From: an uncultured Bacteroidota bacterium
GTDB taxonomy: Bacteria > Bacteroidota > Bacteroidia > Chitinophagales > Chitinophagaceae
Direction of reading: 5' to 3'
Assembly: GCA_903835005.1 (NCBI GenBank)
Contig: CAILLK010000042.1
Span: 1 to 64,000 of the forward strand
DNA: 64,000 nucleotides
Under the pieces are notes generated by a model. That model did no database searches and had not been told where the DNA came from. It saw only the letters and a list, made by a program, of their open reading frames with translations. This document shows, piece by piece, positions 16,101-50,975 of this stretch (position 1 is its first letter; each line of letters opens with the position of its first letter). A program made the position numbers and the translations under genes.

Positions 16101-16221
16101 TAAGGGCTACAGGGTAAAGGTTGAATATTCGGCTGTTTCAGGGGATGAGGCTTCACACATGAGTAATTCGATTGTGAAGACAGTTAGTGAGGCGGCAAGG
16201 AAAAAAGAGAAGCGGAAATAA
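13195..16221 (+). CDS. VirD4/HerA-like DNA-translocase ATPase with a C-terminal PD-(D/E)XK-like domain
   Basis: Walker A LIGATGTGKSTLLHSM; Walker B FFLYVDEFQNF; C-terminus YKALLEELTPDGKGRVDVHLERNTKRIAVEICNTT resembles a restriction-endonuclease-like core. Confidence 0.82.
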   Translation: MLPSLSEQLTAQFYRWEQKGRGWQYFEEPVDLEPHFHPFFGHFALAQPKSIDDGRRHTLFSWIAESIRGKPELEPEPEDYEENEFLAHQFDCDDELITYSIALPKGAKVDPVATQQLLLMLSYSRYPISFEICGSITSISFQLACRESDAIHVQSQVKAYFPESIIKERPDIIKDIISQEEKCASILHYGLKDEFMRPLAMKDSLKPDPLIGLLGTLEHLHSGEYAVVQILFQGTVNPWAESIIRAVTDGSGKPFFENAPEMVPLAKEKISSPLFGVTMRVMGVGHSEENALHISNMVGSAFGRLYFSEWNSLIKLNPPIDFATHVQDFLYRESHQVGMLLNSRELATVVHLPGDTIASQKLERDTRKTKVSPAISEGHKLVLGLNEHQGKEKLVTVSSEQRLRHTHLIGATGTGKSTLLHSMIVDDIRQENGVAVLDPHGDLIESILAYIPVQRHRDVIVIDPSDGEYPVGFNILSAHSEIEKDILSSDLVSVFKRLSTSWGDQMNSVFANAILAILESKEGGTLIDLRRFLVEKSFRDTYLKTVSDPSVVYYWQKEFPLLKSGSVGPILTRLDTFLRPKLIRNMVAQKKGLDFENILDTQKILLIKLSQGLIGTENSYLLGTFFVTKIYQAAMARQIQSKGDRKDFFLYVDEFQNFITPSMSLILSGARKYHLGLILAHQDMTQLNKYDTELASSVVSNAGTRICFRLGDTDAKRFAAGFSYFDAEDLENLNTGQAIARIERPENDFSLSTFPQPYIEPERAASNMEAVIALSRETYGTPKEEVESQLASLLDSLQEVKEEVPAPKPEKKEVPIKAKPAEPNEFPVKYTQEEISQKKEESQHRYLQTLIKKMAEARGYKALLEELTPDGKGRVDVHLERNTKRIAVEICNTTEPDWEVHNIQKCAEAGYDLIVACSNEKKTLENIRKKVETILNTAIQSKLVYFEPEALFQYLDQELAKEASTEVRTKGYRVKVEYSAVSGDEASHMSNSIVKTVSEAARKKEKRK

Positions 16222-16258
16222 ATACAAATAGTTCTCAAACTCTCATTAATTTTAAAAA

Positions 16259-16981
16259 ATGTTGAGATCACCAAATTTGGAAAAATTTTTGTCATTAAAA
16301 TGGTTTCTAGAACCAATCAAATATTTGTTGCTCTTTTTATCATCACTGGCAATAGTTTTTACACTTATAAAAGCATCAAACCTCCATTGGGATTTTTCGC
16401 CTAATGGGTTTCATAAATTTATTGCACTTTACAGTGATTATTCAATATTATTTGCAGCAACATTTATCATCATCAACGTCCAACTTATCCTAAGGCAACA
16501 GACGATTACAGAAAATGAAAATAAAAAAAAGTGGCAGGTTGAAGAAACCAATGCCTCATTAATCCAGTGCCAAATTTTTCTTAATGACATTCAACTGGTA
16601 TACAGAGATTTTCTTAAAACTGGCATTTATGATGGGATGACTATCGAGTGGCCAGGATTAACAGATATTACACGTGAAGGTTTGAAAGCAACGTATCCCC
16701 GTGCAAATGAAAAATTTCAAAAAATGGATAAGAACATATTCTATCAGTCGATGGTCCTGCTCCATAAATTAGACGCATTAGCGTCAATCTTTATTCACGG
16801 CTTTGCAGATATAAATACGGGAAAGAAAGCTATCGGTTATCTCTATTGTAAACAGATCGCATTTTTAATGGGAATAATCGCTTATTCAAGAGTGGATCAG
16901 GAATTATTTCAAAATATCTTGCAATTATACGATATTTGGAAGGATGAAAATTCAGCTACTTCATTAATTTTATACGATTAG
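16259..16981 (+). CDS. Hypothetical membrane protein (two N-terminal TM helices, cytoplasmic helical domain)
   Basis: 240-aa ORF; 6-nt gap to the next ORF on the same strand. Confidence 0.6.
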   Translation: MLRSPNLEKFLSLKWFLEPIKYLLLFLSSLAIVFTLIKASNLHWDFSPNGFHKFIALYSDYSILFAATFIIINVQLILRQQTITENENKKKWQVEETNASLIQCQIFLNDIQLVYRDFLKTGIYDGMTIEWPGLTDITREGLKATYPRANEKFQKMDKNIFYQSMVLLHKLDALASIFIHGFADINTGKKAIGYLYCKQIAFLMGIIAYSRVDQELFQNILQLYDIWKDENSATSLILYD

Positions 16982-16987
16982 GATTTC

Positions 16988-17443
16988 ATGAGCTATAAAG
17001 AAAAACAGAAAAAAGTACGCGAGTACATTCCAACCAAAACCGAGTTATCGAATGAGACAATTCTTACCATCAATAATAAGGTTGACGGAATTAAATTCGA
17101 TATTCTCCATTACGAAGTGTTTCCATTTACAGTTGGTGAGAAAGATGCCCTGAACCAATACTTAAAAGGAGTTTTGATACAATTATGTGATGACAATATA
17201 ATAAGGCATGAAACTTGTGACGAACGTGATACCTATCATATGAACAAGATGAAGAAAGTGGATTATTATTATATTACCGGTAAAGGAATCAAGCTTTGTG
17301 ATACTAAATTGTTCAAGAACAGACCTTACTCTTATTTTAAAGCCATATCTTTTTTTGAACGAATCTTCACTAAATATTTACCGATTGGTATTTCTTTAAC
17401 GGCTCTGATTATTTCATACCTCGGTTTCATGCATAAAAAATAA
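16988..17443 (+). CDS. Hypothetical protein with C-terminal TM helix
   Basis: 151-aa ORF, tail YLPIGISLTALIISYLGFMHKK; close behind 16259-16981. Confidence 0.6.
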   Translation: MSYKEKQKKVREYIPTKTELSNETILTINNKVDGIKFDILHYEVFPFTVGEKDALNQYLKGVLIQLCDDNIIRHETCDERDTYHMNKMKKVDYYYITGKGIKLCDTKLFKNRPYSYFKAISFFERIFTKYLPIGISLTALIISYLGFMHKK

Positions 17444-17452
17444 TATTTTTCG

Positions 17453-17480
17453 TTGGCTAAATCAAAATTCCGTATTTTTG
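17453..17480 (+). promoter_or_regulatory. Putative Bacteroidota sigma-ABfr promoter
   Basis: TTG at 17453 and TATTTTTG (TAnnTTTG) at 17473-17480, upstream of the 17505 ORF. Confidence 0.5.
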
Positions 17481-17504
17481 ATTTTCAACTTTGAATAATA
17501 TTTT

Positions 17505-17990
17505 ATGAGGTACATGAGCACATTTAATCTGTTTAATGACAGGGTAGATATTATGCTATCTGATGGGGAAATAGTCACCCTATATTTCAATCAAAATAGC
17601 GGAAGAGCATACTATCGAAATAAATTACCGGCCATTAAGCATCCAGGCATTTATATTGGTAGTGATCAAAATGGAATTGAGTATTTTGCCCACAACCATC
17701 CTTTTCAGGGTAAGCCTACTTTGGTGCCAGGTATTGATTTCAGTGATGGTGCAAATATTTTTTTGTACCCCGAATTTGCCACTAACCCTCCTTTAAAAGT
17801 AATTGAGATCGCTTTAAACAGAATACTAAGCGCCGAAAAATATACACTAATGACATTTAATTGCCAAGATTTTGTAAACGAAGCGCTTATTAGTAAACGT
17901 AAATCGCCCGCTGTTAATAATTCGTTTGGGGGTATTTTTGCTATTTTACTTGCCGGGCTTTTGTTGAGTTTTGCCTCATCTTCTAAATAA
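17505..17990 (+). CDS. LRAT/NlpC-P60-like papain-fold protein with C-terminal TM anchor
   Basis: HPGIYIGSDQNGIEYFAHNHPFQGK ... TLMTFNCQDFVNEAL (His and NC motifs typical of LRAT-like proteins), tail AILLAGLLLSFASSSK. Confidence 0.65.
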   Translation: MRYMSTFNLFNDRVDIMLSDGEIVTLYFNQNSGRAYYRNKLPAIKHPGIYIGSDQNGIEYFAHNHPFQGKPTLVPGIDFSDGANIFLYPEFATNPPLKVIEIALNRILSAEKYTLMTFNCQDFVNEALISKRKSPAVNNSFGGIFAILLAGLLLSFASSSK

Positions 17991-17997
17991 ATATTAT

Positions 17998-19479
17998 CTA
18001 TTTTAGTTCCGCAGAATTATTATTTTCAGTATTACTGTCTGACAAAAGTCCTGTGGTTGAAATGTCCCCGGTAAACCATTTATGTATCTTTTGCACTCTC
18101 TTTCTTACAGAGTCTTTATCATAGTCATGTTCATCCTTGCTGTAAGTCCGAGGGAGCCAGTCGTCCGCAGTTAATTTGCACTCAACTTTTGCGTCAGTAT
18201 TTACGTCCTGAATTTTTGAATAATCCCATACTGTAGATTTTTTAGCGTAATAGTCAATATCCAAATAATCAAAAAGGATTGAGATAAACATCGCCGTCTG
18301 TATATCCCTCCCTTTTTTATCAGAAACGGAATAGAGAATAGGGATTATGTTGTCTGTATCGTTTCCATTGGCAGAATTATAATGGCTAAATACACATTGT
18401 TTATTCAAGACTGAAACGCACGTGATTTCGTGATACAAATACATGACATCTCTGGTCAGTTCTTCCTGCAAACTTTCTTCAAAATAGGGGTCGTTATAAA
18501 AAGCCCGTATATACTCTGCTATACTTTTAGATGTCGTGTATTCTGTGTCAAATGCAAACACCCCTTTAAATACCGGTAATCGTGCCGTTCTAAATCCAGG
18601 CAGAGAAATATGATAAAATAATTCCAAAGCTTCTTTCAATTTTGCGGCAGTGAGATTCGTTTTCACTTCGATAATCGCACGAACAGCCTCCTGTCTGATT
18701 ACAACCAAATCTCCCTCAGAAAAAGAAGGCATAAAATTCTGAGAATCATAAATGATAATATCAATTTGACGGGCCATTCCTTCAATAAAGCCCGTTCCCA
18801 CAGAGAATTTTGAAGGAATGTGTTTCTTCAAAAATTCTCGCAAAATATGTTCTCGGTAGTTCCCGACCGTTTGATCATGGGATACTAGCAAATTAATTTT
18901 ATCACTTTTAAGCTTCAACTCATCAGCAAGAGAGCCATAATATTTTCGCCTGTTTTCAGAGTTAATCTTCATTTCAGAAAACGTCAAATATTCGCCTGAT
19001 TTTAGTTTTTTATATGAGTAAATTATCTTTTCGGCTATCAGTAATTTAATGAATCCTCTACAAGTATCTTCTTCAATCATTAGTTTTGCGACTAAATGCT
19101 CAACGAGTTCATTGATTAAGGCGCTGCATCCGATTACTGAGAATAAAAAATCATCAGTACCCCGTCTAATTGCAACGTAAGTATCATAGGAGGTTCTCAA
19201 ATTTTCCAGGATACCTCTGGTCAACAAGAATTGCGGCAGATAAGGCTGTTTAAATTCTTCTATAGGCCTTTTGATATATTCCGCTTTCTTTCCAGGACTT
19301 GCTGCTTCATAATACCAAGCATACAATCTATCATTATCATCCTTTTCTCTATACGCTTGAAGAAGTCTTACACTATCAAACTCAGATAATAAACTAATAA
19401 AAAAGTCTCCTTCATTAGGAAAGTAATTCACTACCATTATGCAAATGCTTTTTTTCTTTTTAAATCTGTATTTCACCAA
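17998..19479 (-). CDS. DUF6602-like protein with PD-(D/E)XK nuclease-like core
   Basis: YREHILREFLKKHIPSKFSVGTGFIEG...RQIDIIIYD...EAVRAIIEVKTNL: E...D-x-I-I-(I)...EVK pattern. Confidence 0.6.
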   Translation of the reverse strand: MVKYRFKKKKSICIMVVNYFPNEGDFFISLLSEFDSVRLLQAYREKDDNDRLYAWYYEAASPGKKAEYIKRPIEEFKQPYLPQFLLTRGILENLRTSYDTYVAIRRGTDDFLFSVIGCSALINELVEHLVAKLMIEEDTCRGFIKLLIAEKIIYSYKKLKSGEYLTFSEMKINSENRRKYYGSLADELKLKSDKINLLVSHDQTVGNYREHILREFLKKHIPSKFSVGTGFIEGMARQIDIIIYDSQNFMPSFSEGDLVVIRQEAVRAIIEVKTNLTAAKLKEALELFYHISLPGFRTARLPVFKGVFAFDTEYTTSKSIAEYIRAFYNDPYFEESLQEELTRDVMYLYHEITCVSVLNKQCVFSHYNSANGNDTDNIIPILYSVSDKKGRDIQTAMFISILFDYLDIDYYAKKSTVWDYSKIQDVNTDAKVECKLTADDWLPRTYSKDEHDYDKDSVRKRVQKIHKWFTGDISTTGLLSDSNTENNNSAELK

Positions 19480-19888
19480 CCACGTTAAATTCTAGATCAT
19501 AGGAATGACTATCCTCTCCATTTCTGTCAGTCAATACAATATCCATACAAGATGAAATAGTACCCACTTTAGATTTTCCGAGTATTTTCCTCAGAATTAC
19601 CATACTTGGAAATGACCATTCTTTATAAATCAAATCAGTTGCAAATCTACAAATTGGAGTTTCAACATTATTGCAGACCCAATAGTTTTTCGCTCCTTCA
19701 TAATTGAATGGATTTTTGTTGATATAATCTTGAAATTGTTTCAATTCACCATCAGTAAAACACCTCGCATCTTCGCCAACCACTTCATCAGTACCTAATA
19801 CGTACCACGTAATTTTATACTTCCCCTGATTAATTGTCTTGCTATTATTAAGTCGAAAATAGGAAAGCGGAGTTTCTAATTTGTGCAT
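19460..19888 (-). CDS. Hypothetical protein, overlaps and precedes the DUF6602-like gene
   Basis: 142-aa ORF; 20-nt overlap with the 19479 start of the downstream gene. Confidence 0.55.
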   Translation of the reverse strand: MHKLETPLSYFRLNNSKTINQGKYKITWYVLGTDEVVGEDARCFTDGELKQFQDYINKNPFNYEGAKNYWVCNNVETPICRFATDLIYKEWSFPSMVILRKILGKSKVGTISSCMDIVLTDRNGEDSHSYDLEFNVVGEIQI

Positions 19889-20110
19889 AAAATATTTTCA
19901 ACAAATGTATGGTGCAGGTTTTTAATAGCATAAAAAAATCCGGAAGATTTGTTCCTTTTTTCAACTAATTTCCCTACCTTAGCCCTGCTATCACATCTAG
20001 CGTCCATCCCCATTGTTTTGTTTCTTCGGGCCCAGATATGTGAATTAAGTTTCCCGCATTGAGAGATAGCATCATTATCTCATTTTTTCACAAAAAAATA
20101 GTGTATTCAC

Positions 20111-21694
20111 ATGCAGCAAAGCAAAGCTGTCGGTATCTGGATACGGGTCAGTACCGACGATCAAGCAAGGGGAGATTCTCCCGAACATCACGAAAAGCGC
20201 GCTAGGCTAGTTGCCGAAGCCAAAGGCTGGGAAGTGGTAACGGTGTACCACCTTGAAGCCCTGACCGGCAAGTCAGTCATGGGATATTCCGAGACTAAGA
20301 GAATGCTTACGGATATTCGCAAAGGGGCCATTACTGGCCTCATATTCTCCAAGCTGGCCCGTGTTGCAAGGAATACCAAAGAACTACTTGAACTCTCAGA
20401 AATATATCAACAGGAAAAAGCAGACCTCATATCCTTAGAGGAAGCCATAGACACCTCAACCCCTGCCGGTCGCTTGTTCTATACCATGATAGCCGCTATG
20501 GCCCAGTGGGAACGTGAGGAAATCGTAGCTCGGGTATCTGCATCTGTACCAATTAGAGCCAAACTAGGCAAAAGCCTCGGTGGTACAGCACCCCTTGGCT
20601 ACAAATGGGAAGGCAAGGAAGGGAAAAACAAACAGTTTGTCATTGATGAAAAACACGCCCCAGTCAGGAAACTGGTATATGAACTCTTCCTGAAACTGAA
20701 ACGGAAGAAAGCCGTAGCAAAGTATCTCAATGACAACGGGTATCGCTCCCGAAATGACAAACTGTTCTCAGATACGACCATAAACCAACTACTCCGGGAC
20801 CCATCTGCCAAAGGGGAACGGAGGATCAACTACAGTCAACGATCTCCTGATGGAAAAACCTCAATTAAAAAACCCTTAGATCAATGGGTAAGCTTTCCAT
20901 GCCCAGCCCTGGTAACCGAAGAAATATGGAACGAATGTAACCGCATTCTGGATGCCTCATTAATTAAAAACAAGAAACCGGGGCCAAGACCTAATCACCT
21001 TTTAGCTGGATATGTTTTCTGTGCCGATTGCGACAAAAAGATGTATGTGTTCCACGGTGGCAAGAATCCAACTTACCGTTGTCAAGCCTGCAAAAACAGA
21101 ATAGTCACTCAAGACATTGAAGAAATTTACCATGATCAACTAAAGACATTTTTACTTTCCGGAGTCACCGTTTCCGAATATCTCGAAAAACTGGATGTCC
21201 AATTGCAGGAAAAAGAAAATCTTCTTTCCGCGATTTTGAAAGAACGCGATTCGCTTTTGAAGAAAATCGACAATTTCATAACCATGAGAATAAACAATGA
21301 ACTGTCAAAGGAATTGTTCATTGAACGCCATAAACCCATGGAAGAACGCTTAAACCAGATAAACAACCAACTGCCGGAACTCCAAGCTGAAATAGATTTC
21401 CTTAAAATCCAGCACCGCTCAGGTGATGTTGTCCTAAGCGATGCCAATAATCTCTATGCACACTGGGGCACCCTTGATTTTGAAGCAAAACGGGCAATAG
21501 TGGAAACAATAACAGATAAGATATCAGTAGGGAAGGAAGATATACATATAAAGCTGTCATACATACCAAGTAAGCATACAAATGCAAATACAAATACACG
21601 CGGCGCTGACGCGCCGCTCCCGCCACAAAAAAACAACCAATCCAATTCCAATCAAAACCCCGTAAAAAGTCAAAGTAACGTATACGGTACATGA
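20111..21694 (+). CDS. Large serine recombinase (resolvase N-terminus, recombinase domain, zinc ribbon, coiled coil)
   Basis: VGIWIRVSTDDQARGDSPEHHEKRA (catalytic Ser region), AAMAQWEREEIVARVSASV, zinc ribbon VFCADCDKKMYVFHGGKNPTYRCQAC, coiled coil QEKENLLSAILKERDSLLKKID. Confidence 0.93.
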   Translation: MQQSKAVGIWIRVSTDDQARGDSPEHHEKRARLVAEAKGWEVVTVYHLEALTGKSVMGYSETKRMLTDIRKGAITGLIFSKLARVARNTKELLELSEIYQQEKADLISLEEAIDTSTPAGRLFYTMIAAMAQWEREEIVARVSASVPIRAKLGKSLGGTAPLGYKWEGKEGKNKQFVIDEKHAPVRKLVYELFLKLKRKKAVAKYLNDNGYRSRNDKLFSDTTINQLLRDPSAKGERRINYSQRSPDGKTSIKKPLDQWVSFPCPALVTEEIWNECNRILDASLIKNKKPGPRPNHLLAGYVFCADCDKKMYVFHGGKNPTYRCQACKNRIVTQDIEEIYHDQLKTFLLSGVTVSEYLEKLDVQLQEKENLLSAILKERDSLLKKIDNFITMRINNELSKELFIERHKPMEERLNQINNQLPELQAEIDFLKIQHRSGDVVLSDANNLYAHWGTLDFEAKRAIVETITDKISVGKEDIHIKLSYIPSKHTNANTNTRGADAPLPPQKNNQSNSNQNPVKSQSNVYGT

Positions 21695-39836: not shown

Positions 39837-40033
39837 TATTTACCCAGCATTTTATAGATAAACTCCAATACATTTTTTGCAGCGAAATCCATACCAAAAA
39901 CCACAACAGTAACCATGCTCAGAGCAATAAGTACTATGATAGTGGTCTGCTGCAGTTCTTCCCATGAAGGCCAGGTCACCTTGTGAATCAGCTCGTCGTA
40001 AGCTTCCTGGATATAATTACCGAATTTGCTCAT
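39836..40033 (-). CDS. secE: Preprotein translocase subunit SecE
   Basis: FGNYIQEAYDELIHKVTWPSWEELQQTTIIVLIALSMVTVVVFGMDFAAKNVLEFIYKML. Confidence 0.95.
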   Translation of the reverse strand: MSKFGNYIQEAYDELIHKVTWPSWEELQQTTIIVLIALSMVTVVVFGMDFAAKNVLEFIYKMLGK

Positions 40034-40113
40034 AATCTTACCCGCAGCTGCGGGCTCATTTTAACCGTTAATAAATTACCCTCACCCTTCCGGGAACGGG
40101 TATTGATTTTGCA

Positions 40114-40184
40114 CGGGCACGTGGATTCGAACCACGATCGAAGGTTTTGGAGACCTCTATTCTGCCGTTGAACTATGCCCGTAT
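40114..40184 (-). tRNA. tRNA-Trp (CCA anticodon)
   Basis: Minus strand acgggcatagttcaacggcagaatagaggtctccaaaaccttcgatcgtggttcgaatccacgtgcccgt; acceptor, T arm and CTCCAAA anticodon loop visible; upstream of secE-nusG. Confidence 0.95.
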
Positions 40185-40484
40185 ATTTTAGTCTTCAGTC
40201 GAAAGTATTTAGTCGTAAGTCAGTTGAAGAACTTCGCGGATTAATTACTCAGACATATAACTATCAAGAACTACTACCTGCAAAAAATCAAAAAGCCAAA
40301 AAGTGAAACCTTTTGACTTTTTTATTGCGGATGGCAAATGTACGGAATTTTTTGAAATGAAATGGGAATATTTTTGTTTTACCAGCCCTACCCCTCGTTT
40401 TCGCCGTTGAAGCTGTTCCTCACCATCACCTTCACGCCGTACACCAGCGAATTAGACCCTCCAGCAACGGTACCATGTAATAAC

Positions 40485-40515
40485 AAAAAAGCCTCCATTA
40501 CAGAAGGCTTTCTCT
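40485..40515 (-). terminator. Putative terminator hairpin
   Basis: Minus strand aaagccttctgtaatggaggcttttttg; overlaps the end of the truncated Avd-like ORF. Confidence 0.5.
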
Positions 40516-40815
40516 TAAATGTGACCCGGATTGACATTTTATCGAACCAGTTAAAAGAATTTTGTTATGCCGTATATCCCTTAAAGGAATGGTTTGGAAT
40601 GTAATAGTAACAAAAGGGAAATTAAGGATGATAATGGAAAGGAGAACCTTCTTAAAAATGGTTCGATGTTGAAAAAAAATTTTCGCGTTGTAAGTGATAG
40701 ACTCCTGCCCCAATGTATATTTATATTGCCTGCTAAAATCTCTGGTACATTCAAATATTTTAAGGATTAACTGATACGTGTTTTTATACACAGGCAGTTC
40801 ATAATACAACGCCAT
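40498..40815 (-). pseudogene. Truncated or frameshifted DGR accessory variability determinant (Avd-like four-helix-bundle) gene
   Basis: N-terminus MALYYELPVYKNTYQLILKIFECTRDFSRQYKYTLGQES matches bacterial Avd-like proteins as I know the family; from about residue 41 on it does not (ITYNAKIFFQHRTIFKKVLLSI...). Confidence 0.62.
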
Positions 40816-40829
40816 TTTTTTGAAATTTT

Positions 40830-40844
40830 TACCGCTTCGCGGTA
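40830..40844. repeat. GC-rich hairpin just downstream of the variable region
   Basis: taccgc-ttc-gcggta, 6-bp stem, 24 nt past the target gene's stop. Confidence 0.7.
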
Positions 40845-40867
40845 TTTCTTTTTAAATAGTTAAATTA

Positions 40868-41365
40868 TTAAAAAGCCCGCAAAGCACGCACGTAGCTTGC
40901 GAATTCCTTGTCGAAGGGGGTCTGGGTGCCACCGGCGAAGTCCTCGAACCACACGAACATGAAGTCGGCCTCACTCGAACTCCAATAGAAGCCACTGGCA
41001 AAACCACCTATTTCGGCTTGATTAATGTATAATTTATTTAATTCATCTTTGCTGGGCAAATACCAATCGGTGTTGCCACCACCTGTGTAGCTCCTTGCCA
41101 CTATGGCAGCATAGCTGCCTGCCCCCTGATTGGCTATAATAGCCATCGTATTTGAAAGTCCAGTTCCAATAGCAGTACCTGTAGCATAGGTATTAGTGTA
41201 GCTCCCGTTATACCATTGCACACCTGTACTCTGGTCGCCTGAGGCAGCTATCAGTCCATGTTGTACTGCCGGATCATATCCCGGATCACCGGATTGTAGC
41301 AGGTACGCAATTTTTCCACCGCCATAACTTTGACCTATGGTTAGTGTTGTTGTGGTTTGCTTCAT
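40868..41365 (-). CDS. DUF1566 / C-type-lectin-fold protein; likely DGR target (variable protein)
   Basis: IGQSYGGGKIAYLLQSGDPGYDPAVQHGLIAASGDQSTGVQWYNGSY...DWYLPSKDELNKLYINQAEIGGFASGFYWSSSEADFMFVWFEDFAGGTQTPFDKEFASYVRALRAF*. Confidence 0.85.
   Translation of the reverse strand: MKQTTTTLTIGQSYGGGKIAYLLQSGDPGYDPAVQHGLIAASGDQSTGVQWYNGSYTNTYATGTAIGTGLSNTMAIIANQGAGSYAAIVARSYTGGGNTDWYLPSKDELNKLYINQAEIGGFASGFYWSSSEADFMFVWFEDFAGGTQTPFDKEFASYVRALRAF
40871..40990 (-). other. Candidate DGR variable region (VR)
   Basis: After tat tgg agt tcg agt gag: gcc gac ttc atg ttc gtg tgg ttc gag gac ttc gcc ggt ggc acc cag acc ccc ttc gac aag gaa ttc gca agc tac; 17 of 26 codons end in C, as expected for AAC template codons mutated at adenines. 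Confidence 0.68.
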
Positions 41366-41570
41366 AAAAACTATTTTGGTTTTAAAAATACTACTGGGGT
41401 TTCAAAAATACTATTTTCTAATAAAAAATACCTCCACATATAAATAACATTAATTATTCCGCCATGCAGTTTATCCTCCGGATATTAGCCATATAAATAC
41501 ATGGAATATTACAACAGAGAAAAAGTCATCAACGGTGAATAGCAAGACAATACTCCCACGCGCAGGCATA

Positions 41571-41608
41571 AAAAAGCCCGTAAGTGCTTTAAAGTGCTCT
41601 TACGGGCC
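41571..41608 (-). terminator. Terminator downstream of tRNA-Arg
   Basis: gcccgtaag...cttacgggc inverted repeat followed on the minus strand by a T run. Confidence 0.7.
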
Positions 41609-41612
41609 GAAG

Positions 41613-41686
41613 TGACCCGGATTGGATTCGAACCAATGACCCCCAGCTTAGAAGGCTGGTGCTCTATCCAGCTGAGCTACCGGGCC
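41613..41686 (-). tRNA. tRNA-Arg (TCT anticodon)
   Basis: Minus strand ggcccggtagctcagctggatagagcaccagccttctaagctgggggtcattggttcgaatccaatccgggtca; full cloverleaf features. Confidence 0.95.
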
Positions 41687-41741
41687 GGCCGCTCAACAAA
41701 AAGTGTGCAAAGTTACGTAAAAAATACAATGATTCCAGCCA

Positions 41742-42671
41742 TTATTTCGGTTGGTCGCCTGGCGCTTCTCCATCCTTCAGTATGGTTACCGGTATCAGGT
41801 CCAGCACATAGTTCCAGGTATTATTGTCCCACTTCATACCATCATACTGGCCGCTGGGCACAAAGGTATACTTGCGGTGCGGGTCGTTCATCTGCGAAAC
41901 CAGGTGGTCGAAAACAATCATCTTATGCTCATCGTTCCAGTTCATAGACACCTGCACATCTTTCTTATACTCCAGTATAAACCTGTTCACCCTGTGCCCC
42001 GGAAAGTTGTGTGAGGATACACCGAAAATGGGCGCCCCGAAAACCACATGGTTATCTTCAAAGTACATTGCATCGAGCAATTTTTTGTTGCTGATAGAAG
42101 ATGAACCATTGTAACCAAACATGGTATACATTTTACGGCCGTTTATTTCCTGAGACATTATCCGGTAATATAATGCCCCGAACCATTTGCCACCGGTTAA
42201 AATACTGTCTTCAGCCCCTTTCCCCACCTCTTCCGTATAATCATTCAAGCCTATAAGCTTCAGTCTTTCTCCCGGCAGTTGAATCGCTCCGTAGTATCTT
42301 TTGGTTATGTTTGACGGCGTAATCTCCCAGTTAAAAATGCGGAAACTGCTGTCATCAGACTTAATGATATTGATAATAGTACTTAAACTGTCGAAAGGAT
42401 AAAGCCACGAATTAGGAATCTTGAGGGCATGTACAAGTTGTCTTACAAAACGTTCAGAATAACCAACCCGCAAATCAGGCAGAAATGAATCAAACATAGA
42501 GTCGGAGGTTGCGATCAGTGAATCTTCCATAATGCGGAGTTTCTCAAAATCCTGTGGCGCTAAAGTTTGAGAAAATGCCCTACCGGAGGTAGCCATCACA
42601 AATATTATAACCATGAAAAATGCCTTGTTTTTCATCATCATCCTGAATTTCATTACTTCAAACCTAAACAA
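41742..42671 (-). CDS. Hypothetical secreted protein
   Basis: 309-aa ORF with internal signal peptide MKNKAFFMVIIFVMATSGRAFSQ. Confidence 0.7.
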   Translation of the reverse strand: MFRFEVMKFRMMMKNKAFFMVIIFVMATSGRAFSQTLAPQDFEKLRIMEDSLIATSDSMFDSFLPDLRVGYSERFVRQLVHALKIPNSWLYPFDSLSTIINIIKSDDSSFRIFNWEITPSNITKRYYGAIQLPGERLKLIGLNDYTEEVGKGAEDSILTGGKWFGALYYRIMSQEINGRKMYTMFGYNGSSSISNKKLLDAMYFEDNHVVFGAPIFGVSSHNFPGHRVNRFILEYKKDVQVSMNWNDEHKMIVFDHLVSQMNDPHRKYTFVPSGQYDGMKWDNNTWNYVLDLIPVTILKDGEAPGDQPK

Positions 42672-42871
42672 TTTTTTGTTAAAGATATAATAAGGCTAAT
42701 TGAAAAGGTTAAGAAGCAAGATGCCGACCGGCCTGATAATTTAAATCAGCCCACAAATTGGAAGGAAAGAGGTCTTGGGTGGAAGATAAACAGCTACTCT
42801 GTCTATCCGCAGCAGAATATTTATGTATTTCGCTTAAAAGCTACTATTTTCGGTCTCAAATTCGCCATAGG

Positions 42872-44194
42872 ATGCATTTGGTACAACAGTTATTGTTTAT
42901 AGTCTGCACGATAGCCGGCATATATATTTTCGCAAAAAAGGTGGGCGAAATGCGGCGCAACATCCTGCTGGGGCGGGACGAAGATCTCAGTGACAACAGT
43001 GGCCAGCGATGGAAGAATATGCTGCTGCTGGCAATAGGCCAGAAGAAAATGTTTAAGAACCCGATACCGGCGTTTCTGCACCTGGCCGTTTATGCTGGCT
43101 TCATTATCATTAACATTGAAATACTGGAAATATTCCTTGATGGATTTACGGGTTATCACCGCCTGTTTGCCCATGCCGAAGGTCTTCGTAATCTGTATGC
43201 TTACCTTATAGGTTTCTTTGAGGTACTGGCATCCCTGGTGCTTATTGGCTGTGTTATTTTCCTGATCAGGAGAAATATTTTAAAGGTGCGCCGGCTGAAT
43301 ATGAAAGAACTCATCGGGTGGCCGCGCGAAGATGCCAATATCATATTGCTAACTGAAATAGTGCTGATGACCTTACTGCTCACCATGAATGCTGCCGACC
43401 AGGCGCTGCAGGGGCGCGAAGGGGCTGAACATTACCTTGCCTTAAAACCTTTCCTGGTGAGTGGCAATTTCGTTCATCTGTTTTCCGGTATGTCAGTACC
43501 CACTCTTATGATAATTGAGCGCACCTGCTGGTGGCTGCATATACTGGGTATTTTCTTCTTTCTCAATTATCTGCCCTACTCCAAGCATTTCCATATTCTG
43601 CTGGCTTTCCCAAATGCTTATTACTCCAAACTTACACCAAACGGCGAGGTAAAAAACATGAAAGATATACAGAACGAAGTGCTGTATATGATGGAGCCTG
43701 ATAAAGCCCCGGCTGCGACAGCGGAGGGAGAACACAAACGCTTTGGCGCCAAAGATGTAACCGACCTCACCTGGAAAAACCTTCTGGATGCCTACTCGTG
43801 TACCGAATGCGGGCGGTGCACATCGGTATGCCCGGCAAACAATACCGGCAAGAAACTTAGCCCCCGCAAGATAATGATGGACACCCGCGACAGGCTGGAA
43901 GAAGTGGGCAAAAACATAACTGCAAACAAGGAATTTAAAGACGATGGCAAGAGCCTGCTGAATGACTATATAACTGTGGAAGAATTGCGGGCCTGCACTA
44001 CCTGCCAGGCCTGTGTGGATGCCTGCCCTGTGATGATAGACCCGCTGGACATTATCATGCAGCTACGCCGCAACCTGATAATGGAAGACAGCAATGCCCC
44101 GCAGGAATGGAATATGATGTTTGGCAACATAGAAAACAATATGGCGCCATGGAAGTTTAGCCCGGATGATCGGGATACGTGGGTGAATGGGTAA
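42872..44194 (+). CDS. Membrane Fe-S oxidoreductase (heterodisulfide-reductase-like, two 4Fe-4S clusters)
   Basis: CTECGRCTSVCPANNTGKKLSPRKIMMDTR...CTTCQACVDACPVMIDPLDIIMQLRR; start placed at MHLVQQLL (42872). Confidence 0.88.
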   Translation: MHLVQQLLFIVCTIAGIYIFAKKVGEMRRNILLGRDEDLSDNSGQRWKNMLLLAIGQKKMFKNPIPAFLHLAVYAGFIIINIEILEIFLDGFTGYHRLFAHAEGLRNLYAYLIGFFEVLASLVLIGCVIFLIRRNILKVRRLNMKELIGWPREDANIILLTEIVLMTLLLTMNAADQALQGREGAEHYLALKPFLVSGNFVHLFSGMSVPTLMIIERTCWWLHILGIFFFLNYLPYSKHFHILLAFPNAYYSKLTPNGEVKNMKDIQNEVLYMMEPDKAPAATAEGEHKRFGAKDVTDLTWKNLLDAYSCTECGRCTSVCPANNTGKKLSPRKIMMDTRDRLEEVGKNITANKEFKDDGKSLLNDYITVEELRACTTCQACVDACPVMIDPLDIIMQLRRNLIMEDSNAPQEWNMMFGNIENNMAPWKFSPDDRDTWVNG

Positions 44195-44264
44195 TTTGCA
44201 AATATGGAAATGTGCAGATGTGGAAATTGGTGGCGATTGAAAATAATTTTTTTAATGAGTAACA

Positions 44265-45620
44265 ATGGCTGAAGAAAATAAAGGGATTTACTTTACTGAA
44301 CTGAGGCTCCAAAACGTAAGGTGTTTTGGGGATGAGGCCGTTTTAAAATTAAGTAATGATAAAGGCGAGTGGAGCAGATGGAATGTAATACTTGGGGATA
44401 ATGGGACAGGGAAGACAACTTTGTTGCAGTGCTTGGCGGGGTTAGAGCAGCATTCGTCTCCATCAAATGATGGAAGTTGGTCAGCCGACATTGAAGATCG
44501 AAAGCAAAGTTTCTTAAGGTTATCTAACCTTTCCAATAATCTTAAACCTGCAGATGTAACAGGTGTGGTAAAAATTTCTAAAACCGAATTAGTCCCATTA
44601 AACTTCACGGAATTTTTAGAAGGCGGTTTTTTGACAACAGTATTATATGATAGTAGAATAAAGAATTTATTTATCCTTGGTTACGGAGCTAACCGTCGCA
44701 TAAGTTTTCAAATTTTCTCAAAGAAAGAAATAAACCCGGAAATTTCGTCAACACTTTTTGATGATGATGCTAAACTGATAAATACCGAAGAATGGCTTTA
44801 TCAGATGGATTATTCAGCCTACTCTTACATAGTTACGAGCGGATCAACACAAGTTCCTACAAACGATAATGAAATAAGAAAATTCACTAAAGATTTCCGA
44901 AATAAAATTGAGAATATATTATTAGGTGTATTACCAGACATAGCTAAAATTAGGTTCACAAAATCTGAAAAAATTAATCAGCTTCCGAAAATAGAATTTA
45001 AAACTCCATATGGTTGGGTAGGTATAAATCAACTAAGTTATGGCTATAAAACAATGGTAGCTTGGATTGTCGATGTTGCTGCTCAAATGTTCAAGAGATA
45101 CCCAGATTCCGCAAACCCTTTAGAAGAACCAGTAATAATTCTTGTTGATGAAATTGACCTTCACCTACACCCAAAATGGCAAAGGCAGATTTTTGATTTT
45201 CTGGAAAAAAGATTTCCGAGGGCGCAGTTTATTGTTACTGCCCATAGCCCGCTGATAGTGCAGAGTGCACCTAAGGATGCGAATATAATAGTGCTGAAGA
45301 AGGAGCAGGTGGGTGATGAGTTTGTTGTTAAGATAGATAATGATACAAAGTCGGTATGGAACTGGAGGATTGACCAGATAATGGCAAGTGATCTGTTTGG
45401 TTTGGATAGTTTACGTAATCCAGAGATAGAACGCTTAATGAATGAGCGAACCAGCCTCATCCAAAAAGATTCATTGACAGTGGATGAACAAAGTCGCCTT
45501 GACGAATTGAATGATCTCTCAGATCGTTTACCAACAGCCGATAACCCAACAGATATTAAAGCGATGGAAATAATCAGGGAGGCGGCAGATTATATAAAAA
45601 ACAAACAGAAAGCCCAATGA
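44265..45620 (+). CDS. AAA (ABC/OLD-type) ATPase, Septu PtuA-like
   Basis: LRLQNVRCFGDEAVLKL; Walker A VILGDNGTGKTTLLQCLAGLE; Walker B VIILVDEIDLHLHPKWQRQIFDFLEKRFPRAQFIVTAHSPLIVQ. Confidence 0.85.
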   Translation: MAEENKGIYFTELRLQNVRCFGDEAVLKLSNDKGEWSRWNVILGDNGTGKTTLLQCLAGLEQHSSPSNDGSWSADIEDRKQSFLRLSNLSNNLKPADVTGVVKISKTELVPLNFTEFLEGGFLTTVLYDSRIKNLFILGYGANRRISFQIFSKKEINPEISSTLFDDDAKLINTEEWLYQMDYSAYSYIVTSGSTQVPTNDNEIRKFTKDFRNKIENILLGVLPDIAKIRFTKSEKINQLPKIEFKTPYGWVGINQLSYGYKTMVAWIVDVAAQMFKRYPDSANPLEEPVIILVDEIDLHLHPKWQRQIFDFLEKRFPRAQFIVTAHSPLIVQSAPKDANIIVLKKEQVGDEFVVKIDNDTKSVWNWRIDQIMASDLFGLDSLRNPEIERLMNERTSLIQKDSLTVDEQSRLDELNDLSDRLPTADNPTDIKAMEIIREAADYIKNKQKAQ

Positions 45621-46381
45621 TTCAAATAAGAAATAAAATTGGGTCTGCTGTTCCGGATATTTTATCTGGCAAAGGAAGGTCTGTAGCTGATGCTCATAAG
45701 GTGGAATATGAGAATGGTGCAATTGATTTCAAGTTTGATCCTAAAATTTACGGAAATAAAAATGTCAAAGAAAAATTGATTGAATTACAGAATGGGAAAT
45801 GCTGTTTTTGTGAATCAGTAATACATGCTAATTCATATGGAGATGTAGAGCATTACCGGCCTAAAGCAGCATGGGTGCAGGGAAATGAAGCACTAAACAA
45901 GCCAGGGTATTATTGGCTGGCCTATGATTGGGACAATTTATTTTATTGTTGCCAGATTTGCAATGAACAGTTCAAGAAAAACTATTTCCCTTTAGCAACA
46001 GAAAGCAATCGGGCAAAGAATCATCATGAAGATATAAGCAAAGAGGACCCATTGTTTATTCATCCTGTAAATGATAATCCTGAAGACCATATTGAGTTCA
46101 TAGGAGATGTGCCACGACCTCGGAATTCTAGTGCAAAAGGTAAAGTTACAATTGAGAGAACAGGGCTAAACAGAGATAAGCTAAATGACAAAAGAAAACG
46201 GACTTTTACTGCTCTGAATCATATCTATCAACTTGTAAAAAATCATCCTGACAATCCACCGGAATTAAAGCAAAATGCAATTAATGTACTCCTGGAATAT
46301 CACTTTAATGCGCATCAGGACGAAACCGAATACGCCTCTATGCTGCGTTGCTTTTTCAGAAAAAACCCTATAGATTTTTAA
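45617..46381 (+). CDS. HNH nuclease (TIGR02646-like), Septu PtuB-like
   Basis: ELQNGKCCFCESVIHANSYGDVEHYRPKA...YYWLAYDWDNLFYCCQICNEQFKKNYFPL; ATGA overlap with the ATPase gene. Confidence 0.83.
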   Translation: MIQIRNKIGSAVPDILSGKGRSVADAHKVEYENGAIDFKFDPKIYGNKNVKEKLIELQNGKCCFCESVIHANSYGDVEHYRPKAAWVQGNEALNKPGYYWLAYDWDNLFYCCQICNEQFKKNYFPLATESNRAKNHHEDISKEDPLFIHPVNDNPEDHIEFIGDVPRPRNSSAKGKVTIERTGLNRDKLNDKRKRTFTALNHIYQLVKNHPDNPPELKQNAINVLLEYHFNAHQDETEYASMLRCFFRKNPIDF

Positions 46382-46399
46382 CCTTAAGAACTTTAGTTT

Positions 46400-47176
46400 A
46401 TGCCAGTAAAATCAATGAGTGAATACGCTGCGAACGGAGATAACCTGGAGATACTTTTCTGGGTGGGATGTGCAGGTAGCTTCGATCAGCGGGCGCAGAA
46501 GATAACCAGGGCTTTTGCCCATATACTCGATAAAGTGGGTATTAAATTTGCGATACTGGGCAAGGAAGAAATGTGTACGGGCGATCCGGCGCGAAGGGCG
46601 GGCAATGAGTTTATGTTCCAGATGATGGCCTATAACAACATCCAGACCATGAATGGCTATGGCATTAAAAAAGTGGTAACCATATGCCCGCATTGCTACA
46701 ATATTTTTAAGAACGAATATCCTGCGCTGGGTGGCAACTATGAGGTAATGCACCATACTACTTTCCTGCAGCAACTCATCAATGAAGGTAAAATTAGGCT
46801 TAAAGACGGTGGCGTATTTAAAGGCAAAAAGATAACCTACCACGATAGCTGCTACCTGGGCAGAGGAAATAACATCTATGAGGCTCCCCGCGAAGTACTG
46901 GCGGCTTTTGACAGTGAACTGGTGGAAATGAAACGCTGCAAAAGCAATGGTATGTGCTGCGGCGCCGGAGGTGCACAGATGTTTAAGGAAGAAGAACCCG
47001 GAGATACCCGTATCAATTTTGTACGGGCCAGCCAGGCTTTGGAAACCGGCGCAACCATAATTGCATCCAATTGCCCGTTTTGTATGACCATGCTCACTGA
47101 TGGTGTGAAAAATAAAGAACAGGAAGAAAATGTAAAGGTGCTGGATATTGCCGAAATGGTGGCGATGTCGCTTTAA
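46400..47176 (+). CDS. (Fe-S)-binding CCG-domain protein (heterodisulfide reductase B-like)
   Basis: FWVGCAGSFDQRAQKI...VVTICPHCYNIFKNEYPALGG...YHDSCYLGRGNNIYEAPR...MCCGAGGAQMF. Confidence 0.9.
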   Translation: MPVKSMSEYAANGDNLEILFWVGCAGSFDQRAQKITRAFAHILDKVGIKFAILGKEEMCTGDPARRAGNEFMFQMMAYNNIQTMNGYGIKKVVTICPHCYNIFKNEYPALGGNYEVMHHTTFLQQLINEGKIRLKDGGVFKGKKITYHDSCYLGRGNNIYEAPREVLAAFDSELVEMKRCKSNGMCCGAGGAQMFKEEEPGDTRINFVRASQALETGATIIASNCPFCMTMLTDGVKNKEQEENVKVLDIAEMVAMSL

Positions 47177-47251
47177 GTCATAAGTCGTTAGTCTTTAGTT
47201 GTGGTATTTTATTCAGAAGATTAATTCATTTTTAATAATTAAATTCCTGCA

Positions 47252-47833
47252 ATGAAAAAACTGTTTTTTGCGGTAAGCACACTTACAATCCTGTCTGCTT
47301 GCAGCAGTAAACCACAAAGGGATGATGCCAAAATCAAAGCATGTATCAATACGTATCTGACCACAGGCATTGATAAAAAAGATGTACCTAAAATTGACAG
47401 TATAAGTATCAACTCTGCTGATACACTGACTGAAAAGAATTGCCTGAAAATTGCAATGGACCGCAAATATGATCTTCTTAAATCGCTCAACGCCATTTAT
47501 CAATCGAAACTGGAACTTTTAAAAGCAGATTCAGCTTTACTGGGCAGCCTGCAGCAACAGGTGGATTTATATAAAAAACACGGAGAAAAATTTGATGAAA
47601 CTTCATTGAAGAATCAAACTGAAAAAATAAAGACTGACTCAGCCGAAATAATAGAAAGCAGGGTAAGCGCTGATAAAACAAGGAACTCAATTGACAGTCT
47701 TGGCAAACTATACAACGTCGCGGATTCAGTTGGCTTCTACGGTTATTTTATCGGTGCATCGGTGCACATACATGGCTCAGACATAGAGACCGGTAATTAT
47801 ATTGTTACCAAGGACTGGAAAGTGAGCAGATGA
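47252..47833 (+). CDS. Hypothetical lipoprotein
   Basis: MKKLFFAVSTLTILSACSSKP lipobox. Confidence 0.7.
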   Translation: MKKLFFAVSTLTILSACSSKPQRDDAKIKACINTYLTTGIDKKDVPKIDSISINSADTLTEKNCLKIAMDRKYDLLKSLNAIYQSKLELLKADSALLGSLQQQVDLYKKHGEKFDETSLKNQTEKIKTDSAEIIESRVSADKTRNSIDSLGKLYNVADSVGFYGYFIGASVHIHGSDIETGNYIVTKDWKVSR

Positions 47834-47847
47834 TGTGACTGGAAGAA

Positions 47848-49080
47848 TTAAATAATGGATTTAATGTGCTCCAGGTACTTCATTGCCAACACCTCCCGGT
47901 CAAAGTTTTCTTTTGCAAACCGGTAACCACTCTCCCCTTCCCTCCTAACCCGTTCAGGGTCGTTAAGATACAGGCGTATCACCCTGTTGTATTCTGCTGT
48001 ATTCTCAGGCTCTACATAACTTCCAGCTCCGGCAGCTTCAACCAGTTCCCGCGATACGCCATCAATAGCCATGAGAATTGGCCGCTTGCACGACATATAG
48101 TCGAAGGTCTTGTTGGAGTAAACGGTCTTAAAAGTATCCACCCGTTTAAGCACCGATGCCCCCATTTCGGAAGCCAGTATATACCGGAACACATCGGCTT
48201 TAGGCACAGAATCGAGGAACCTGACATTGGTAATTTTCCGGTCTTCAGCCATTTTCACGAGCCTGTCTTTTTCCATACCCTGTCCTATCAGCAGGAAAAG
48301 CACATTTGTATCGGTCAGCACTTCAGCCGCGTCCAGTATTTGTTCCAGGCAGTTAGCCACACCATGGGCGCCTACATAAGTGATTACAAATTTACCTTCC
48401 AGCCCATGCATTTTACGGAAAACATCCTTGTCGAATTCCCGGAGCAATTTCTCTGACAGACTGAAATCTGCAGCATTAGAGATCTGGATCAATTTGTTTT
48501 CTGCTATACCTTTTTTCTCTTTCAGTGAGGTGTAAAAGGCAGGAGTCAGAACGTTAATAAGCTTTGCCCTTTTATAAATAAATGCTTCAACCCAATAGGC
48601 CAGTTTTATAACCAGTTTATTTGTCAGCACGCCGGTATCAATTGCCGATTCCGGCCAGAGGTCGCGTACTTCAAATACAAATGGCATCCGCCTTAACCTG
48701 GAAACCAGATATCCGCTTACGCCAACAAACAACGGCGGAGAAGTAACTATAACCACATCAAATTTTCCTTTTGCTTTAATCAGTCCTGCATAAAGCGATG
48801 AAAACATAAAGGAAAAATAGCCCCAAAGCCTGCCAATAAAATGCTTATTATATGCCTCAGATACATGACACCTCAATACAGTAACAGCCCCCTGTTGCTT
48901 TTTCACAAACAACCGGCCTTTATACTCCGGTTTCTTTTCTTTCCCGTTATAATGCATCATGCCTCCCAGCACGGTTACGGTATGCCCCTGTTCCGTCCAT
49001 ACCCTGGTAAATTCATTCCACCGGGAGCCTCCCGGGTCATCTTCCTCTAAAAAATACTGGTGAATAAGAAGTATGTTCAT
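47848..49080 (-). CDS. Glycosyltransferase family 4
   Basis: MNILLIHQYFLEEDDPGGSRWNEFTRVWTEQGHTVTVLGG...VFEVRDLWPESAIDTGVL...ITYVGAHGVANCLEQILDAAEVL. Confidence 0.92.
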   Translation of the reverse strand: MNILLIHQYFLEEDDPGGSRWNEFTRVWTEQGHTVTVLGGMMHYNGKEKKPEYKGRLFVKKQQGAVTVLRCHVSEAYNKHFIGRLWGYFSFMFSSLYAGLIKAKGKFDVVIVTSPPLFVGVSGYLVSRLRRMPFVFEVRDLWPESAIDTGVLTNKLVIKLAYWVEAFIYKRAKLINVLTPAFYTSLKEKKGIAENKLIQISNAADFSLSEKLLREFDKDVFRKMHGLEGKFVITYVGAHGVANCLEQILDAAEVLTDTNVLFLLIGQGMEKDRLVKMAEDRKITNVRFLDSVPKADVFRYILASEMGASVLKRVDTFKTVYSNKTFDYMSCKRPILMAIDGVSRELVEAAGAGSYVEPENTAEYNRVIRLYLNDPERVRREGESGYRFAKENFDREVLAMKYLEHIKSII

Positions 49081-50975
49081 GAATTGCTGCTTATTTTTAT
49101 TTCAGTTTTAATAACATTGCTCCCTCCACAAAAATGCCATTCTCCGGTTCTTACCTTTTGCCCGTATAAAGAGGAAAACCAACCTTCATGCAAATGGGGC
49201 ATTATGAGATCGCCAACTGTGTTCCTTGCCTCAATCAATACCTTATCTGAAACATTTATTGGCAAGTGCCAGACCTGGTTCATAAATAAATTGTCAGGAG
49301 CACCTGTTATTTCATCAGTGACATTCCATACGGGTAAACCTTTCATTTTTACAACAGTTCGCTTATGCGCTATACCGTCTTTAATGTAACTGAACGCTTT
49401 AATTGCTCCATTAAAGATAAATTCTTTTTCATTTTCCTTTAAACCTGCAGAATCACATTGCGACCAGTAATACCATATAAACCTGCCACCCTTCAGCATC
49501 TGGTCTTTATCATTCAGCATTACCGTATTGTGCGAGGCTGTACCGGAGAAATATCTAATGGTCGCCTCATCAGTATTGTATTTATAACTTCCGGCATCAA
49601 GCAATATATTCTCTCCCTTATACCATACATCCAGGTGCAGGTTATCGGCATGAGACGGGCGGTCTTTATAGCTGCCACATTTAATGAACGTAAGTGTTTG
49701 CGGCTCCCTTACTAAATAATATCCGCCATCAATAAATTTATGTATTCCATTATCAGGCTGCCACTTTTCATTAATGTGGAGGTTCAGCCCGTACCAATGC
49801 ACATCCTCAGACTGATCATTGAAACCTAAGTCTATTCCAAGAGTCATTCCCAGCGCCTGCAGCTGAGGCCTGTAATCTCTGTAGTGCGCATTACTGAAAT
49901 TAAAAAATAATGCACCGTCATTGGCTCCGTAATTAGGCAACCATCCATTTTCATCAACCATACAGGTACGTAAAAATTCCAGCGATTTCCCCGCACGGTC
50001 ATAAAAAATATCGCTGAATTTTTCATCGTTCTTCTCCGACAAGGTTATGGCCCATGTAAGCAATTGAACTACTATGCGATGATAATTCATGGAGAATTGC
50101 AGGTAAGTGCCATCTTCATATACCTGGTAAGTTATTTCTTCTTCCAGCCATTTTCTGCCATTCTTTTTCCACTCAGTTGCGCCGGGCAGGGCAGGATAAA
50201 ATAATCCTGCAAAATACAAGGCTAGTGTCTCGGTTACAGCATGGTTGTTGCGCACTGCTATTCTGGAGAAATCTATGTTTTTATAAACATGGTCCATATG
50301 CCAGTAAATGGCATACTGGATCTGATTAAAAACATCATCTGTTAATGCGGCCGAATTCCGGTAATAATAGAGTGCAAACGTCCAGTTCATTATCCTTAAC
50401 GACATTTCCTGGCTGCAGCGGTAATTAGGTCCGCAGTTTACAGGGTTACCTTTTATCCATGAAAGAATATCTGTAAACACGAGGGCAGCACAATCATCAT
50501 TAAAATGGTAATCGTACCTTATGATATCATAGAGGTAGGAGAACCGTGATTTTTCCCATACAAATTTTATATCCCCCGCCTCTTTTGACAGATCTGCAAT
50601 CTCTGTCCAGTGTTTATTTATATCATACCGGAATCCCGAATCCGGATTGGTTATCCAATCATAATCTGGTCCGAGGTCTGTAAGAATACTGCTGAACAAT
50701 AAAAATTTACCGGATTTAATGTTGGTAAAAGTTTCTTTTAAGCAACTATCCGGATTCCTGTCAAGAAAGAGTGATTCCCTGCTTTGAAAAAAAAACCTGG
50801 CCTCATTTTGCTTCCATACCTTCAACGACATGAACTGTTTATACTCCGGTGATGCCGGAAACCGCTTCTTTAATAAACCAGATCGGAGCCTCAATTCATA
50901 CTTCATCCGGAAGGCGGTATACCGCCAACCCATATTACCAATAAGGTTAAAGATTTTTTTTAGTTTGCCTGGCAT
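49077..50975 (-). CDS. Heparinase II/III family (alginate lyase-like) protein
   Basis: NNHAVTETLALYFAGLFYPALPGATEWKKNGRKWLEEEITYQVYEDGTYLQFSMNYHR...HADNLHLDVWYKGENILLDAGSYKY...SGTASHNTVMLND. Confidence 0.9.
   Translation of the reverse strand: MPGKLKKIFNLIGNMGWRYTAFRMKYELRLRSGLLKKRFPASPEYKQFMSLKVWKQNEARFFFQSRESLFLDRNPDSCLKETFTNIKSGKFLLFSSILTDLGPDYDWITNPDSGFRYDINKHWTEIADLSKEAGDIKFVWEKSRFSYLYDIIRYDYHFNDDCAALVFTDILSWIKGNPVNCGPNYRCSQEMSLRIMNWTFALYYYRNSAALTDDVFNQIQYAIYWHMDHVYKNIDFSRIAVRNNHAVTETLALYFAGLFYPALPGATEWKKNGRKWLEEEITYQVYEDGTYLQFSMNYHRIVVQLLTWAITLSEKNDEKFSDIFYDRAGKSLEFLRTCMVDENGWLPNYGANDGALFFNFSNAHYRDYRPQLQALGMTLGIDLGFNDQSEDVHWYGLNLHINEKWQPDNGIHKFIDGGYYLVREPQTLTFIKCGSYKDRPSHADNLHLDVWYKGENILLDAGSYKYNTDEATIRYFSGTASHNTVMLNDKDQMLKGGRFIWYYWSQCDSAGLKENEKEFIFNGAIKAFSYIKDGIAHKRTVVKMKGLPVWNVTDEITGAPDNLFMNQVWHLPINVSDKVLIEARNTVGDLIMPHLHEGWFSSLYGQKVRTGEWHFCGGSNVIKTEIKISSNS

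Follow-up and report, generated by a model that had tools for sequence, protein, structure and literature searches.

A stand-alone Septu pair in an integrase-free slot of an Fe-S operon, with mosaic replacement in the centre of its ATPase

Introduction

The window analysed here, a stretch of 64,000 nucleotides from contig C42 of genome G000 (a lake Bacteroidota genome of 5.9 Mb), contains an ATPase gene and an HNH nuclease gene lodged between two genes of an Fe-S operon, and it raises the question of what this pair is and how it came to occupy such a position. An earlier note, made from the sequence of the window, had proposed a Septu (PtuA/PtuB) defence pair inserted into the operon. The pair itself is of this known kind; the interest of the locus lies in the operonic slot and in the swappable centre of PtuA, and both the recurrence of the slot and the mosaicism of PtuA go beyond what the earlier note could see. 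The account that we consider probable is that of a stand-alone Septu effector, housed in an integrase-free operonic defence slot and diversified by homologous recombination, in which the PtuA centre is probably what senses the phage.

Results and Discussion

Identity of the ATPase and HNH nuclease pair

The four genes lie on the plus strand in the arrangement that the earlier note described. The gene for a 4Fe-4S dicluster membrane protein (42872-44194; Fer4_9, 6e-11), which is the upstream half of the operon, forms the left edge of the slot and is followed, after a junction of 70 bp without a terminator-like site (44195-44264), by ptuA (44265-45620, 451 aa) and ptuB (45617-46381, 254 aa), which overlap by ATGA (spacing -4 bp). 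The gene for a cysteine-rich CCG-domain protein (46400-47176; CCG, E = 1.2e-31) begins 18 bp 3' of ptuB and forms the right edge.

The motifs named in the earlier note are also present. The PtuA reading frame contains Walker A GDNGTGKTT (residues 44-52, 44394-44420) and Walker B VDEIDLHLHPKWQ (given as ILVDEIDLHLHP for residues 292-303, 45138-45173), both near-invariant in the alignment of relatives; Walker B is placed opposite LIDEIELHLHP of the retron PtuA, and an ABC-signature-like LSYGYKT (residues 257-263, 45033-45053) opposite LSDGQRV of the same protein. The PtuB reading frame contains KCCFCE, VEHYRPK, YDWDN and CQICN. KCCFCE (45797-45814), the first Cys pair of the HNH module, is invariant in 10 PtuB sequences, VEHYRPK (45845-45865) holds the catalytic His79 opposite IEHFRPR of the solved PtuB, and WDN (45929-45937) holds Asn107 of the H-N-H opposite WGN. 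Residues K50 and D295 of PtuA and H79 and N107 of PtuB align with the solved PtuA and PtuB and are invariant in relatives; in Septu EcB88 the Walker A and B motifs of PtuA and the HNH His and Asn of PtuB are required for function (PMC13096335).

Profile searches give matches over nearly the full length of both proteins. The PADLOC model PDLC00304 covers residues 1-448 of PtuA (450 bits, E = 2.7e-135) and PDLC00339 covers residues 1-250 of PtuB (281.6 bits, E = 1.8e-84), E-values that place the match to Septu far beyond chance; PtuA also matches AAA_21 and AAA_15. Among solved structures, the closest to the two proteins are the PtuA and PtuB subunits from retron I-A and from Septu. Together with the conserved catalytic residues, these matches support the assignment of the pair to Septu, as judged from sequence. 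TIGR02646, also named in the earlier note, falls short, PtuB scoring 46.2 bits, just under the cut-off of 52.15. Like Septu as modelled by PDLC00304 and PDLC00339, the pair is a two-gene operon of ATPase and HNH nuclease with Walker A and B and HNH residues and without a reverse transcriptase; it differs from Septu in being housed in a core operon slot and in having a PtuA centre that is hypervariable and exchanged. Those relatives with close PtuA that bear a name are metagenome bins of uncultured Bacteroidetes. The genome of the window carries two more Septu-type ATPase and HNH pairs, with PtuA identities of 38% and 33%, at L122 7622-9854 (G000:C69) and L125 5969-8607 (G000:C132).

The pair shares its ATPase and nuclease families with the PtuA and PtuB of retron Ec78 (Eco7; NF041760 and NF041761), and membership of a type I-A retron was considered as a candidate. 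It was rejected: near ptuAB no reverse transcriptase is present and the neighbours are the Fe-S genes, a search of 40000-50000 for Rfam retron RNA found none, and the junctions of 70, -4 and 18 bp are too short for one, so that ptuAB is taken as a stand-alone Septu. The pair differs from retron Ec78 in lacking the reverse transcriptase, the msr/msd and the ~60-residue N-terminal extension, and it scores under the cut-offs of the NCBIfam retron-type models (NF041760, 144.2 bits against 500, E = 5.9e-42; NF041761 for PtuB, 58.4 bits against 150, E = 8.7e-16).

Operon context and expression

The order of 4Fe-4S gene, ptuA, ptuB and CCG gene is maintained with tight spacing, the distance from the ptuB stop to the CCG start being 17-20 bp in most slot genomes and 59 bp in G008. 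No terminator-like site was found at the slot junctions, no match to the Bacteroidetes-type promoter pattern was found in the window, and the sigma-70 and terminator scans gave results at chance level only. The short spacings and the absence of terminator-like sites make co-transcription of ptuAB with the Fe-S operon likely, and the ptuB-CCG spacing in the slot genomes, again with the absence of terminator-like sites, suggests expression by read-through.

Short near-repeats (tttgcaaatatggaaatgtgcagatgtgg; cagcaggggcag; gtcatggtgagc) occur at the edges of slots, in 44195-44240 of the window and in similar stretches of the G020, G001, G008, G004 and G025 slots. These could serve as homology seeds for recombination.

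Slot occupancy in the genus

A survey of the genus covered 35 loci with the 4Fe-4S/CCG junction. In 19 of them the slot is empty, with a gap of 11 to about 140 bp and no recognised cargo, which bears out the proposal of an insertion into the operon and shows that the pair is not a constant feature of this position; in the close relative G028, for example, the 4Fe-4S protein is 92% identical and the junction is an empty 78 bp. PtuAB occupies five slots (G000, G020, G001, G008 and G005, the last interrupted by a contig end), and in G020 a lone HicB stands upstream of it. The remaining cargo comprises HicAB alone (4/35, with one more partial case in G006), HicAB with a Pif1-like helicase of 664-669 aa (2/35), a 23S-IVP protein (2/35), and remnants of HicB or IVP (2/35). 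Within the genus, every recognised cargo gene has the orientation of the operon. The earlier note had seen no mobility gene attached to the pair, and the wider comparison agrees, since neither the window nor the occupied relatives of the genus showed an integrase, transposase or phage gene between the two operon genes.

The G+C content of ptuA and ptuB is 0.37 and 0.36 and that of the flanking genes 0.48 and 0.46, and the G+C content of ptuAB lies below that of the flanks in all four genus members measured.

Two further observations concern the cargo. The HicAB and Pif1-like helicase combination, a candidate composite defence module, is found in different species at L040 6308-8859 and L066 5705-8288 (CCG-oriented), with 60% identity in the portion that was compared. 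A possible 3' remnant of ptuB lies 3' of HicAB in G029 (L067 8108-8723), with a score above all 100 shuffles; scores of similar size were also obtained in G016 and G018, but these resemble matches due to repeats or to chance and were rejected.

The earlier note also held that the two Fe-S genes are normally adjacent in Bacteroidota. Within the genus this holds, the genes being either adjacent or separated only by cargo. Across the family it does not: the 4Fe-4S gene is present in nearly all genomes of the sample, the two genes lie within 300 bp in 31 of the 128 genomes where both were found, and in many genomes they are unlinked or on different contigs. Family gaps of 0.5-11 kb with LysE, YceI, DinB and ATP-grasp genes, often on the opposite strand, seem to reflect a different gene order and were for that reason left out of the cargo.

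Two controls were made for the slot. At the junction that follows in the operon, from the CCG gene to a CoA-binding-like gene, insertions of at least 400 bp occur in 0/18 species versus 12/27 at the slot (Fisher p = 0.001, only indicative as the species are related); this comparison is free of the bias of choosing families from the slot. Slot-type genes were absent from ~430 kb of flanking sequence, a control that is biased in that its query families were picked from the slot.

Slot occupancy in other genera

The slot is also occupied outside the genus. In G278 PtuAB lies between both genes at close spacing (24 bp and a few bp). It stands immediately 5' of the CCG gene in G236 and G064, with contigs that end upstream; the 4Fe-4S gene of G064 is followed by a DUF6364 and PIN_3 pair, after which the contig ends. 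The slot also takes HicAB (G138), HepT/MntA (G141), ORF6N (G035), IVP (G101, G161 and G091) and, in G102, an AbiLi-like ATPase with an RloB/AbiLii-like protein. Pairs of two of these kinds, each in the slot of another genus, are located at L169 3118-5147 (AbiLi-like ATPase with RloB/AbiLii-like protein) and at L128 3932-4568 (CCG-oriented; MntA-like nucleotidyltransferase with HepT-like protein).

This range of occupants bears on two other readings of the pair. One is that Septu and the 4Fe-4S/CCG proteins act jointly, for instance with the redox complex signalling stress to PtuA. The tight operonic spacing, seen likewise in G278, and the restriction of this PtuA clade to the slot within the sampled genus would fit such a function. 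However, the operon is without Septu in most relatives, the slot takes unrelated modules, and the related PtuAB of G352 and G471 are located away from the operon, so joint action appears very unlikely. The other reading is a housekeeping ATPase and HNH pair for DNA repair with no part in defence, which gains some room from the fact that the clade is assigned to defence from its sequence; yet the patchy presence of the pair, the toxin-antitoxin and defence modules that share its slot and the full-length Septu models all speak against repair, and we regard it as extremely improbable. A role in defence is the reading that we retain for ptuAB.

Turnover of PtuAB at the slot

Within the genus, PtuA of at least 60% identity occurs only in the slot, and slot PtuA of three genera forms one clade (support 97/98). 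No close PtuA was found on plasmids, phages or IMG/VR contigs, and carriage of the clade by phages or plasmids was rejected as a candidate on that ground.

Between the window genome and G020 the divergence of PtuAB does not follow that of the flanks. Their flanking proteins are 97% identical and their PtuB proteins 56%, and the path between the two genomes is 0.04 in flanking proteins against 0.93 in PtuAB. Grouping of the two PtuB proteins is rejected (AU, p = 0.0017), whereas for PtuA alone the same test does not reject it (p = 0.16).

These data may be set against vertical inheritance, in which PtuAB was already in the slot of the family ancestor, was lost in most lineages and diverged fast in the survivors. 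The single clade across three genera, with G278 deepest as would be expected, and a G+C content that in the four genus members measured is below that of the flanking genes are compatible with an ancient insertion. Nevertheless, the PtuAB of the window and of G020 are as far apart as from another genus despite their near-identical flanks, and the other cargo at the slot requires gains in any case. Purely vertical inheritance is therefore unlikely in our judgement, while ancient presence followed by later exchange of alleles is possible. As far as sequence comparison goes, it is most likely that cargo arrives, leaves and swaps alleles by homologous recombination, with the core genes on either side and the PtuA ATPase blocks as its anchors.

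Hotspots that lack integrases and turn over through recombination in the core genes beside them have been described as a class (Oliveira et al., 2017, PMC5635113), and the slot fits this class by analogy, recombination in its flanks being the presumed route. It resembles those hotspots, for which homologous recombination at the flanks was proposed, in that cargo turns over at a constant position between core genes and mobility genes are absent. It differs from them in lying inside a single short operon, between two genes that run in the same direction, in having recognised cargo that is small and mostly toxin-antitoxin or defence, and in that one cargo gene is mosaic.

Mosaic structure of PtuA

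Variation in PtuA is concentrated in two segments. Among six slot alleles (g1/g30) the ATPase blocks (residues 1-60 and 276-380) are mostly 78-100% identical, whereas identity is 8-36% in hypervariable segment V1 (residues 61-135, 44445-44669) and 25-77% in V2 (residues 181-245, 44805-44999). The nearest relatives of V1 and V2 differ among these alleles, indicating that the two segments reassort separately.

A clean central swap is seen in one genome pair, G236 and G064, both probably metagenome-assembled and with contigs ending just upstream. Identity is 93-98% upstream, 97-100% in PtuA codons 1-60, 95-100% from residue ~280 to the end of PtuB, and 85-100% in the CCG gene, whereas PtuA residues 61-275 are mostly ~40-70% identical at the DNA level, with indels, and both frames are intact. 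Synonymous divergence (dS) outside the centre is 0.124 and 0.016-0.028, and inside it is saturated or high, which indicates that the centre was replaced rather than diverged in place. When a donor for the swapped centre was sought, none was found. The window and G020 show a related pattern, in which PtuA codons 1-60 and 276-380 have dS of 0.5-0.9, matching the divergence of the flanks, and the PtuA centre, the C-terminal tail and PtuB diverge far more than the flanks.

The variable centre might instead be a fast-diverging structural arm, or an interface with PtuB, that evolves in place and senses nothing. It is consistent with a structural arm that the same stretch cannot be aligned with the retron PtuA; the structure models are uninformative on this point, since AlphaFold models from four sequences reached pLDDT of only 39 (PtuA) and 37 (PtuB), too low for the variable region to be located in them or for the models to serve in a fold search. 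Against it, synonymous sites of G236 and G064 shift as sharply as protein sites at the boundaries of the swap, and evolution in place would not give such an abrupt synonymous change. An interface with PtuB is unlikely, as PtuB is almost unchanged across the swap, and the swapped region is for the same reason probably not the docking surface of PtuB. Taken as a whole, an arm or interface evolving in place is a rather improbable explanation, and exchange of the centre as a module is preferred.

Central mosaicism is not general to PtuA. The retron Ec78-type ptuA shows no such break in 15 E. coli records or on a Klebsiella plasmid, the gene being ~96% identical in one piece and 93-100% per 90-base block, a further difference from the window pair. 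No description of PtuA mosaicism was found in the open-access literature.

Proposed mechanism

In the mechanism that we propose, ptuAB would be expressed, probably by read-through, from the 4Fe-4S/CCG operon. PtuA would act as an ATPase and probably as a sensor that, on infection, releases or activates PtuB, and the HNH nuclease of PtuB would then cut a nucleic acid needed by the phage, either tRNA or DNA. Both kinds of target have precedents, tRNA-Tyr being cut by Septu EcB88 and retron-Eco7 and the Septu of E. coli ATCC25922 being reported to nick DNA (PMC13096335, PMC11555353). The core genes that border the slot and the conserved ATPase blocks of PtuA would anchor the exchange of cargo, and the PtuA centre (~61-275, chiefly 61-135 and 181-245) would be exchanged as a module, its most likely role being recognition of infection. 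A natural guess is that a lobe inserted after Walker A and before the signature motif contacts the trigger.

The swappable centre, with one clean pair and wider patterns consistent with it, leads to the hypothesis of a sensor role, in a form that reads the sequence patterns of this Septu clade as follows: at a cross-genus, integrase-free operonic slot, the part of PtuA that runs from Walker A to the signature is exchanged on near-identical backbones, the nuclease stays unchanged and the host thereby alters the set of phages that it senses. We put this modular sensor forward tentatively, as having somewhat less than an even chance of being correct. A comparable organisation is found in the HsdS subunit of type I restriction enzymes, in which target-recognition domains are shuffled and a conserved core carries a swappable specificity segment. 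The likeness lies in the conserved core with a swappable segment; the proteins differ, and a specificity role for the PtuA segment is putative.

The G236 and G064 alleles amount to a natural experiment that points to the residues expected to set phage specificity, with PtuB held constant. The slot itself suggests that defence and toxin-antitoxin modules can share a core operon junction that supplies the promoter, without integrases. With the junction as a shared address, the slot cargo of other genomes is a place in which to seek new defence genes.

A possible integrated element in the window

A possible integrated element lies elsewhere in the window at 12605-21694. It contains a TraD/TrwB-like coupling ATPase (13195-16221), a large serine recombinase (20111-21694) and, on the minus strand, a DUF6602 protein with a NucC-like/PD-DExK match (17998-19479).
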